57,266 nucleotides of DNA from SAR202 cluster bacterium AD-804-J14_MRT_500m (GTDB lineage: Bacteria; Chloroflexota; Dehalococcoidia; UBA3495; GCA-2712585), in the NCBI GenBank assembly GCA_009391275.1, contig VEXF01000009.1:1-57266 (forward strand). The letters are read 5' to 3'. Every line of letters starts with the position of its first letter. Positions within the stretch are counted from its first letter, which is position 1. Position numbers and translations under genes: made by a program. The notes under the pieces are model-generated. The model saw nothing but the letters and a program-made list of their open reading frames with translations, ran no database searches and had not been told where the DNA came from. Positions 17,568-36,201 of this stretch are shown here, one piece after another.

Positions 17568-18446
17568 TTATCTATTCTCTACCGTTAACGAAGTTTCTGA
17601 TCTGATTATTCGGGTCGTACCTTGGGGTCGAGGAGTGCATAGCCTAGCGGTAGTTATGAATCCTGTATGCGCGACCATCCTATGAACAGGTCTCATGCTA
17701 CGCTCAGATACATGCCACGGGCGCAACATTAACTCTACGGCCTCAATAAGCTGGAATCCACCGTGGGATTCCAATTCCTGAGTTAATCTGTGCACCTGCA
17801 ATACGGTCGGGAGAAAACTGACAAAAATTCCGCCAGGAACTAGCAGATTCCCCGCCGAAGCTACCACCCTCCAAGGCTCAGGAACGTCTAATACCAGTCG
17901 GTCCACATCAGTCTCTTCTACTCCTTGGTAAATATCCCCCTCTTTCACGTCCAAAGAGTATCCTTTGGGAATCAATGGCGAAATGTTCTTGAGAGCTTGT
18001 TGGGTTTGATCGGACCGCAGATCATATGAGGTAACTTTGCCATTTTGCCCTACAGCTCGTAACAGAGCTAATGTGAGAGCTCCAGATCCAAACCCTGCTT
18101 CAACAACATGGGACCCAGGGAATATATCCCCCAGCATAATAATCGCACCTAAATCTTTCGGATATACTACCTGGGTAACTCGCCGCATTTCCAAAACGTA
18201 GTCTGAAAGCGTCGGTTTCAACGCCAAAAGCCTATGTCCATTACTAGTTTGCACCCACTCCCCTTGGCATTTACCAAGAACCTTGGAGTGCTCTAGAAAT
18301 CCCAGATGGGTATGGAAAGATTCGCCTTCTGTCAGGGTAACAAGGTAACGACGTCCTTTGCGGTCTATCAAGAGAGAAAGGTCTCCATCTTGAAACCGTG
18401 ATCTCAAAGACTCTGCAGGATCCATCCTTTCGCCTATATTGCTCAT
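17568..18446 (-). CDS. trmI: tRNA (adenine-58-N1)-methyltransferase TrmI
   Basis: A 292-residue SAM methyltransferase that makes m1A58 in the tRNA T-loop as a homotetramer. An N-terminal beta domain (LSLLIDRKGRRYLVTL) precedes IIMLGDIFPGSHVVEAGFGSGALTLALL, the TrmI SAM-binding motif, and LDVPEPW carries the catalytic Asp region. The gene is preceded on the same strand by the peroxiredoxin gene, 104 bases upstream. The 130 bases after its stop toward 17438 show no gene. Confidence 0.9.
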   Translation of the reverse strand: MSNIGERMDPAESLRSRFQDGDLSLLIDRKGRRYLVTLTEGESFHTHLGFLEHSKVLGKCQGEWVQTSNGHRLLALKPTLSDYVLEMRRVTQVVYPKDLGAIIMLGDIFPGSHVVEAGFGSGALTLALLRAVGQNGKVTSYDLRSDQTQQALKNISPLIPKGYSLDVKEGDIYQGVEETDVDRLVLDVPEPWRVVASAGNLLVPGGIFVSFLPTVLQVHRLTQELESHGGFQLIEAVELMLRPWHVSERSMRPVHRMVAHTGFITTARLCTPRPQGTTRIIRSETSLTVENR

Positions 18447-18550: not shown

Positions 18551-19015
18551 TTATCCAATCCGAATCACTTCAGACAAAATATCTTCCGGAGACGGCAGAA
18601 CACCTGGCGGATATTCTTCTCGAAACCTGATGGTTCCTGCTCTATCGACTATAATTATGGCACGCTTGGGACCACCATTGGATTCATTAAAAAGTACATA
18701 ATTCTTTACCATATCGCCGTGGGGATTAAAATCCGCCAAGAGCGGATACTGTATATTGCCTAAAGAATTAGACCATGCCCGATGCGAGTGCTGACTATCA
18801 CAACTAATACCCAATACTTGGGCATTTTTCTCCTCAAACCGGGCGTTGGCCCTGCTAAAAGAGGAGACTTGGTTAGTTCAACCACCTGTGAAATCAAACA
18901 CGTGGAAAGCTAATACTACCAGTTTTTCACCATTGAATTTAGACAAAGATATCTGCTCGCCTGTTTGATCTGGCAAACTAAAACCCGGAGCTACATCTCC
19001 TACGTTCGCTGACAT
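18551..19015 (-). CDS. Selenocysteine-containing peroxiredoxin (in-frame TGA)
   Basis: Reading from ATG 19015, which has a strong AGGAGGGAG site, gives a 154-residue thioredoxin-fold peroxiredoxin of the AhpC/TSA-Bcp type. The frame continues through one TGA at 18878-18880, codon 46. The residues around it are FDFTGG-TGA-TNQVSSF. In peroxiredoxins the active-site pattern is T-x-x-C, and here the TGA stands exactly at the peroxidatic Cys. Good family sequence continues on both sides: APGFSLPDQTGE and LVVLAFHVFDFT before, VLGISCDSQHSHRAW and a thioredoxin-fold C terminus after. Selenocysteine is therefore a much better reading than a nonsense mutation. Cys72 (ISCDS) is a possible resolving residue. 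A simple gene caller would report only the C-terminal half. It would reduce peroxides in the cytoplasm. Confidence 0.85.
18830..18866 (-). promoter_or_regulatory. Candidate bacterial SECIS stem-loop
   Basis: On the mRNA, CTCCTC starting 12 bases after the TGA pairs with GAGGAG. Inside, GGGC pairs with GCCC around a CAAC loop, which lies about 30-33 bases after the TGA. This distance fits the usual bacterial range for SelB recognition. The loop lacks the G normally expected among its first two bases, so the assignment is tentative. Confidence 0.5.
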
Positions 19016-19132
19016 TAATCTCCCTCCTATTGATAACGTTCGAAAGTGCTTCAACCGTGCACATTTTTACAAGCAACCACGAGATTATACAGATTGGTTT
19101 AGATTGTTACTACCGAACACGCGCGTATGTTC

Positions 19133-34897: not shown

Positions 34898-35055
34898 GGA
34901 TCTCACCAATGCACAAACCTTCCACAACTACTAGACTCCGGCGATGCTACTACGCCTTTGAGGAATGGTCAACGCAGCAATGGCGCCGAAAGGCCATCTC
35001 ACCTTGTCCGTCTAGCAATGCTATACTCGCGCCACCAAAATGCTGGAGGCTGTTC

Positions 35056-36201
35056 ATGAAGCCCACTTCTCACCAATCCCCTATATATCATAAATATCAC
35101 GTCCGGCCTATTATCAATGCAGCAGGCAGTGTGACTAAGTTTGGTGGTTCCAGAACTCGGAAAGAAGCATTAGAAGCCATGGAACAGGCCTCAAAGACCT
35201 TAGTGGATCTGGCAGACCTCAATGAAAAAGCCGGTGAAGTGATAGCCCGCATCACCAAGTCCCCAGCAGGGTTTGTCAGCAACGGAGCAGCAAGTGGGCT
35301 CATACTTCAAGCTGCTGCTGTCATAGCTGGAGCAGATCCTATAAAAATGGCTCAACTACCACAAACGAAGGGTCTGAAAAATCAGATCATTATCCAGACC
35401 ATGCACAGATTCCCATACGATCAATCTTATCGAGCAGCTGGGGCAGAACTAGTGACCATCGGATCGGCAAGACGCACTGCGACTTGGGAGTTAGAAGGTG
35501 CCATAAATGAGAGAACTGCGGCCGTCGCATTTTTATTTTCGCCTTTTACTGCTCGAACCGGCTTGACTCTGCCCCAAGTCTCGGAAATTGCCCACTCAAG
35601 AGGTATTCCGGTCATTGTAGATGCCGCCTCAATGGTTCCTCCTCGAGAGAATCTGACGAAATACGTGAAAATGGGCGCAGATTTGGTAAGCATTAGCGGC
35701 GGAAAGGGAATTCGAGGCCCTCAAGGTTCAGGGCTCCTTTTTGGACGCAAAGACCTAGTTGATGCAGTTTCGGCCAATGCGAGCCCAAACCAATTCTTGG
35801 GACGGGGTATGAAGGTGTCCAAAGAGCAAATTATTGGTTTTCTCACCGCGCTAGAGGTATTCATACAAGAAGACGAAGAAGCAGAAATGAATGAGTATCG
35901 GAGAAAAGCTCAACAAATAACTGATGCGTTGATCGAGATTCCTGGAATGGCAGTTTCAGTGAAGCATGACGAACATGATTTCATAATCCCTTCCACCCTT
36001 ATAACATTTGATCGGTCTTGGACCGGGCGAACAAAAGAAGACATCCTTTCTAGCCTTGCCTCTGGGGATCCTCCGGTGCAACTTCAGTCTATATTCTTGC
36101 CCGAGGACCAAATGGCAGTAGATCCGTTTAACGTGGACAACGAAGAGCTAGAAGTCCTTATACGTAGACTTAGGGAGGAATTATTGAAAAGCGATCTCTA
36201 G
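35056..36201 (+). CDS. SelA-like PLP-dependent enzyme (not selenocysteine synthase)
   Basis: A fold-type I PLP enzyme of 381 residues in the SelA/DgaE-like family. HVRPIINAAGSVTKFGGSRT replaces the N terminus of true SelA, SNGAASGLILQAAA binds the cofactor phosphate, VIVDAASMVPP holds the PLP Asp, and SGGKGIRGPQGSGLL the Schiff-base Lys. Relatives are ammonia lyases of amino sugar acids or hydroxy-amino acids. ATG 35056 is chosen over an in-frame codon at 34909, as the upstream 49 codons are not family-like. It is divergent from the CoA-transferase operon. Confidence 0.85.
   Translation: MKPTSHQSPIYHKYHVRPIINAAGSVTKFGGSRTRKEALEAMEQASKTLVDLADLNEKAGEVIARITKSPAGFVSNGAASGLILQAAAVIAGADPIKMAQLPQTKGLKNQIIIQTMHRFPYDQSYRAAGAELVTIGSARRTATWELEGAINERTAAVAFLFSPFTARTGLTLPQVSEIAHSRGIPVIVDAASMVPPRENLTKYVKMGADLVSISGGKGIRGPQGSGLLFGRKDLVDAVSANASPNQFLGRGMKVSKEQIIGFLTALEVFIQEDEEAEMNEYRRKAQQITDALIEIPGMAVSVKHDEHDFIIPSTLITFDRSWTGRTKEDILSSLASGDPPVQLQSIFLPEDQMAVDPFNVDNEELEVLIRRLREELLKSDL

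Follow-up and report, generated by a model that had tools for sequence, protein, structure and literature searches.

An AhpE-like peroxiredoxin with a predicted peroxidatic selenocysteine in a SAR202 bacterium

A TGA inside a peroxiredoxin gene raises the question of how it is read, and whether the gene is alive at all. Such a gene lies in a 57,266-nt stretch of contig VEXF01000009.1 (hereafter the window; GC content 46.8%), which belongs to the SAR202 cluster bacterium AD-804-J14_MRT_500m. Its frame, on the reverse strand, comprises 154 sense codons closed by a TAA; codon 46 is the single in-frame TGA (Table 1). Strand, start, ribosome site and lone TGA are all as described in an earlier note made from the sequence alone; the 155 codons given there count the stop, so that the protein has 154 residues. 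The read-through product matches the AhpC-TSA family (PF00578) with 116.9 bits against a cut-off of 26, and the match (residues 5–131) crosses the TGA, in agreement with the claim that family sequence continues on either side of it. The protein context of codon 46 is Thr-Gly-Gly-U-Thr-Asn-Gln, in which U stands for a predicted selenocysteine (Sec).

Table 1. Features of the predicted selenoprotein gene and its surroundings, in window positions
Feature	Position	Strand	Remarks
Peroxiredoxin selenoprotein CDS	18551..19015	-	ATG to TAA, 154 residues, predicted Sec46
Ribosome binding site AGGAGG	19023..19028	-	7 nt 5' of ATG
UGA codon 46, predicted selenocysteine, peroxidatic position	18878..18880	-	
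Thr43 codon, T of TxxU	18887..18889	-	Thr in 38/39, Ser in 1/39 TGA loci
Val39 codon, site of Pro in Pxxx(T/S)xxC	18899..18901	-	
Codon of Arg118, counterpart of the conserved active-site Arg	18662..18664	-	Arg in 84/84 loci
Predicted SECIS-type hairpin	18829..18867	-	first stem base 10 nt past UGA
Hairpin outer stem	18861-18867 paired with 18829-18835	-	
Hairpin inner stem	18849-18852 paired with 18841-18844	-	
Hairpin loop CAAC	18845-18848	-	
TrmI-like tRNA methyltransferase (PF08704), downstream neighbour	17568..18446	-	

Related loci were fetched by a peptide pattern located 3' of the TGA, and residue 46 of the query was masked in the alignment. Among the best 80 loci, the codon aligned with TGA 46 is TGA in 35, TGC in 44 and TGT in one, and no other codon occurs. 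The peroxiredoxin alignment, which the earlier note had proposed as a check, returns nothing but TGA or a Cys codon at this column, and a UGA in frame where homologues have Cys is a pattern expected of bacterial selenoprotein genes. The 35 TGA loci of this set show 40–73% identity. The order of the nearest single-chromosome genome was also searched, taking only matches at E <= 1e-40. It yields 87 matches, spread over 85 of 197 genomes, and every one has exactly one internal stop, a TGA, which is codon 46 in all 33 matches whose codon position was checked. From this order, 24 loci (two of which repeat L003 and L004) add to the 35 above in having TGA at this codon. Judged from a single alignment column that admits only TGA or Cys, the presence of TGA at codon 46 is more than chance.

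The sequences flanking the TGA change as coding sequences do. Against each of 13 relatives, changes are most numerous at third codon positions on either side of the TGA, and the frame 3' of the TGA closes at 107–109 codons in every one of them. In L001, the differences at codon positions 1/2/3 are 15/5/30 in the 45 upstream codons and 25/14/68 in the 107 downstream codons, with amino-acid identities to the window of 71% and 75%, respectively. The neighbourhood is conserved on one side: genes for TrmI-like and Methyltransf_28 proteins adjoin the peroxiredoxin gene in the six related genomes inspected, and, of four genomes from which a longer stretch was retrieved, three have citrate synthase next in line; it was not found in the stretch from G019. 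The upstream side varies, with EF-Tu located 0.6 kb from the gene start in the window and about 18 kb from it in G002.

At the protein level, the search returned 212 homologues. In the 120 of these that are listed, the TGA column holds Cys in 57, Trp in 10 and Val in one, and it is empty in 52, which are proteins that start 3' of the TGA. The Trp entries, read as the result of translation with code 4 by some gene caller, include the three nearest full-length relatives among the matches listed (86, 78 and 64% identity). Among these homologues, annotation does truncate the gene, as had been anticipated, or enters Trp at the TGA. Ordinary gene calling thus tends to shorten a predicted Sec peroxiredoxin of which 85 of the 197 genomes sampled from the order have a strong match with an internal TGA, and their peroxide defence is likely under-counted.

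The machinery for Sec insertion was surveyed in relatives, namely in seven genomes of the nearest family. SelB exceeds its cut-off in all seven (in G001 it is split across two contigs), and so does SelD, each time with an in-frame TGA; SelA is found in six (not in G018), tRNA-Sec in six (not in G017) and the peroxiredoxin with TGA in six (not in G020). The tRNA-Sec model also scores other tRNAs up to about 49 bits, and the tRNA-Sec count uses only matches above 65 bits; ARAGORN finds a tRNA-Sec with anticodon TCA in the seven loci scanned. SelA, SelB, SelD and tRNA-Sec are found together in G002 (OY282371), which consists of one chromosome of 2.35 Mb. In all 11 relatives whose SelD match exceeds the cut-off (for example, L120-L123), SelD contains one in-frame TGA, which makes SelD itself a likely selenoprotein there. 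Across the 79 genomes that hold the best 80 loci, SelA exceeds its cut-off in 31 of the 34 that have the TGA form, versus 18 of the 45 that have the Cys form (Fisher test, p=2e-6, uncorrected for relatedness). The three TGA-form genomes in which SelA falls below the cut-off (G005, G006 and G008) count against the Sec reading, as do the failure to find a tRNA-Sec in the 57,266 nt of the window and that to find a Sec-pathway gene among the window ORFs scanned. A SelA-family gene of the window, at 34909-36201, might have pointed to the Sec pathway, but it was rejected on its score with the selA model, 55 bits where the cut-off is 267.9. It encodes a SelA-family PLP enzyme other than SelA, the nearest model being DgaE-related (233.4 bits, cut-off 385.3).

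The other ways of reading this TGA can be weighed against these data. A lone in-frame stop in a single gene of a contig could mean that the gene is dead or encodes Cys, the TGA being a nonsense mutation or a sequencing error; yet the same codon is TGA in the 35 diverged loci and in the 24 further ones (two of them repeats), evolution is of the coding type on either side, and the neighbour genes are conserved, so that this explanation retains next to no probability. The earlier note, which had considered a nonsense mutation unlikely, was right in this respect. The Trp entries among the listed homologues (10 of 120), for which some gene caller seems to have used code 4, could suggest that UGA has an ordinary sense meaning in this organism, either Trp or Gly. 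However, a Trp or Gly codon never occupies the column in the best 80 loci, TGG occurs 194 times, and TGA, although the rarest stop, closes seven of the 47 window ORFs taken as genes (TAA closes 24 and TAG 16). RF2 is over its cut-off in 10 of 11 relatives; together with these seven ORFs, this indicates that UGA also serves as a stop, and it is scarcely conceivable that UGA is simply a sense codon here. (Two of the RF2 matches, G021:C1:134150-135193 and G001:C43:5845-6885, have one TAG inside the matched stretch.) Only a little more room is left for a mixed read-through, in which UGA 46 would mostly be read as Cys or another residue, for example as Cys carried on tRNA-Sec when selenium is short, with Sec inserted only in part. 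The residue inserted at UGA 46 is indeed a prediction, but the nearest family possesses SelA, SelB, SelD and tRNA-Sec, and its SelD carries an in-frame TGA, which makes predominant decoding as another residue very improbable.

Sec insertion in Bacteria is associated with a hairpin 3' of the UGA (bSECIS), and a structure of this type is predicted in the window and is common to its nearest relatives. The stretch of 54 nt from the TGA onwards folds with an MFE of -18.6 kcal/mol and a z of -2.69 against dinucleotide shuffles, and comparison of the hairpin with 500 synonymous recodings that preserve the protein gives a z of -2.97, with two of the 500 folding equally well. A 51-nt stretch that shortens the stem gives a z of only -1.60, 17 of 200 shuffles being as good, which counts against the hairpin. 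The mean z is -2.14 in TGA loci (n=39, 21 of them below -2) versus -0.79 in Cys loci (n=45, four below -2; Mann-Whitney p=1e-7, uncorrected for relatedness). Five of the 39 TGA loci have a z above -1 (L003, L009, L022, L023 and L049), and these also count against the hairpin; L003 and L009 belong to the window's own clade. Covariation was assessed in the window and nine of the 13 relatives, a set that leans towards the hairpin because four relatives with seemingly broken outer stems (L003, L004, L006 and L009) were left out. In these chosen ten, 88.6% of cells pair (81.6% when shuffled; 0/500 shuffles), eight cells are changed on both sides (3.5; 3/500) and the covariation score is 0.246 (0.134; 0/500); the four pairs with a double change (82/500) and the ten further pair types (56/500) are not unusual. 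RNAalifold returns the identical outer stem on this set. The bSECIS model asks for 16-37 nt to the apical loop, a loop of 3-9 nt, an upper stem of 4-16 bp and an MFE <= -7.5, with a G wanted in the first two loop positions, and a subset of putative elements departs from it (PMC13188914). The window hairpin lies within these sizes and this energy, with 29 nt to a loop of 4 nt and an inner stem of 4 bp. Its CAAC loop lacks the G, no alternative fold within 5 kcal/mol provides it, and the rule is satisfied in the MFE fold of two of the ten sequences.

Sec peroxiredoxins with a TxxU site are a known and abundant class of selenoproteins. They are tabulated with the Eubacterium acidaminophilum enzyme as reference, ahead of the group 'Predicted with high confidence' (PMC13188914), and 43 genes are reported from the Sargasso Sea set (PMC1088965), 253 from GOS (PMC2398784) and 12 in another report (PMC1794560). 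The window protein shares with this class the PF00578 domain, the TxxU, the use of Sec for the peroxidatic Cys and the hairpin 3' of the UGA, and differs from it in having Val for the Pro of the motif. It scores 55.7 bits with the NCBIfam PrxU model, whose cut-off is 270, and is therefore not an equivalog of that family. Peroxiredoxin-like thiol:disulfide selenoproteins also combine PF00578 with Sec, but their site is UxxC or UxxU (PMC13188914). A literature search on SAR202 and selenoproteins or selenocysteine, mostly at the bibliographic level, found no description of this gene. SelA and SelB are reported from most sponge-symbiont bins of various phyla, with no peroxiredoxin in the excerpted text (PMC5649159); Sec formate dehydrogenases and Sec translation factors are reported from other Chloroflexi, again with no peroxiredoxin in the excerpt concerned (PMC4959059). 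A scan of viral contigs retained no relative, and the 22 records from a search of phages all show less than 60% identity. One phage protein, from Microcystis phage MaAM05 (MW495066.1, 40607-40999), is annotated as a selenocysteine-containing peroxiredoxin and is 35.1% identical to the window protein.

To judge from sequence and from the predicted model, the closest kin of the window protein is the 1-Cys enzyme AhpE (PDB 1xxu, 4x0x, 5c04). It is the top PDB sequence match (E 8.9e-25) and the top fold match of the predicted model (TM 0.93, 34% identity); the AlphaFold model, with Cys placed at 46, has a pLDDT of 95.8. The AhpC-TSA domain, the fold match and the conserved Arg all place the protein in the peroxiredoxin superfamily. 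In the alignment, Thr43 and Arg118 have as their AhpE counterparts Thr42 and Arg116, which contact the catalytic Cys (PMC4965862). As in AhpE, a second Cys is not conserved: Cys72 is the only other Cys of the window protein and is Cys in just 10 of 39 TGA loci, which makes a conserved resolving Cys unlikely. The two proteins differ in that AhpE Cys45, Glu48 and Phe37 correspond to Sec46, Gln49 and His38, and the AhpE subgroup motif PxAF(T/S)xxC (PMC5302317) appears in the window as VFDFTGGU, in which F and T are kept, and P and A are absent.

The loss of this Pro qualifies the earlier statement that the context fits the T-x-x-C site exactly: TxxC is indeed matched, whereas of the full motif Pxxx(T/S)xxC only Thr43 is kept, with Cys replaced by Sec46 and Pro by Val39. 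This motif is described as definitive for the superfamily and present in 99.3% of 38,739 sequences (PMC5302317), and PxxxTxxU is described as highly conserved in Sec forms (PMC13188914). Residue 39 is Pro in all 45 Cys loci; in the 39 TGA loci it is Pro in 26, Val in nine, Ile in three and Ala in one, Pro being kept in 26 of 27 Sec forms outside the window's clade. The 24 order loci (two of them repeats) have Val in 19 and Ile in five; L008, from the same order, retains Pro. In a 109-row tree, which includes column 39, the 37 Val/Ile rows lie on one side of a branch with support 100/97, recovered in 200/200 bootstrap trees (100%); 35 of these rows are distinct, the window included (L140 repeats L003, and L150 repeats L004). 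The window groups with L001 (Chloroflexi), L002 (Dehalococcoidia) and L104, with support 100/83; SAR202 is a name in use for marine lineages of this kind. The named rows of the Val/Ile clade are Chloroflexota, with the exception of L005. This contig of 3.2 kb was binned as Armatimonadetes, and its genome has no SelA or SelB over cut-off; a possible mis-binning may account for its placement. The Val/Ile clade is a variant of the established class, and its loss of Pro is one event, so that the link of this loss with Sec is not replicated.

It could be argued that a protein with Val or Ile at residue 39, as found in the window and in all rows of its clade, is a selenoprotein whose main job is something other than peroxide removal, given that the motif is called definitive and occurs in nearly all sequences (PMC5302317). 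Nevertheless, Thr43, Arg118 and the predicted AhpE-like fold are retained, and a different main role appears unlikely, although it deserves more consideration than any of the alternatives concerning the codon itself.

It is very likely, on comparative grounds, that Sec occupies the peroxidatic position of the window peroxiredoxin, as the earlier note had proposed; the purity of the column, the coding-type conservation, the hairpin and the Sec machinery of relatives all support this prediction. The reading as a whole, that of an AhpE-like peroxiredoxin selenoprotein with a presumed 1-Sec peroxidase cycle, can be held with high confidence. According to this model, the window's own cell would possess the Sec machinery, and UGA 46 would be decoded as Sec by SelB and tRNA-Sec(UCA), probably assisted by the hairpin that starts 10 nt past the UGA. 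The selenolate of Sec46, positioned by Thr43 and Arg118, would then attack the peroxide and end as a selenenic acid. Because a second Cys is not conserved in the TGA set, a 1-Sec cycle is envisaged in which an external thiol, presumably thioredoxin- or glutaredoxin-like, would act as reductant.

A further proposal, which is tentative and rather doubtful at present, is that in this mostly Chloroflexota clade the changes from Cys to Sec and from Pro to Val/Ile work as a pair, so that the selenolate, being more reactive, tolerates or needs a pocket devoid of Pro, possibly with a different substrate range or reductant. If this were true, the clade would often escape surveys based on annotated proteins, as many gene calls start past the UGA. 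With Pro replaced, and Thr and Arg kept, the clade offers a natural test of the role of this Pro.

Additional in-frame TGA codons occur in the window and its relatives. Other TGA-interrupted frames exist in the gaps of the window, and further selenoproteins may be encoded there. In genomes of the nearest family (G002, G017, G018, G019 and G021), nine further AhpC/TSA-like matches, all of them weak and each with a single internal TGA (L109, L110, L112 and L114-L119), are possibly more selenoproteins.
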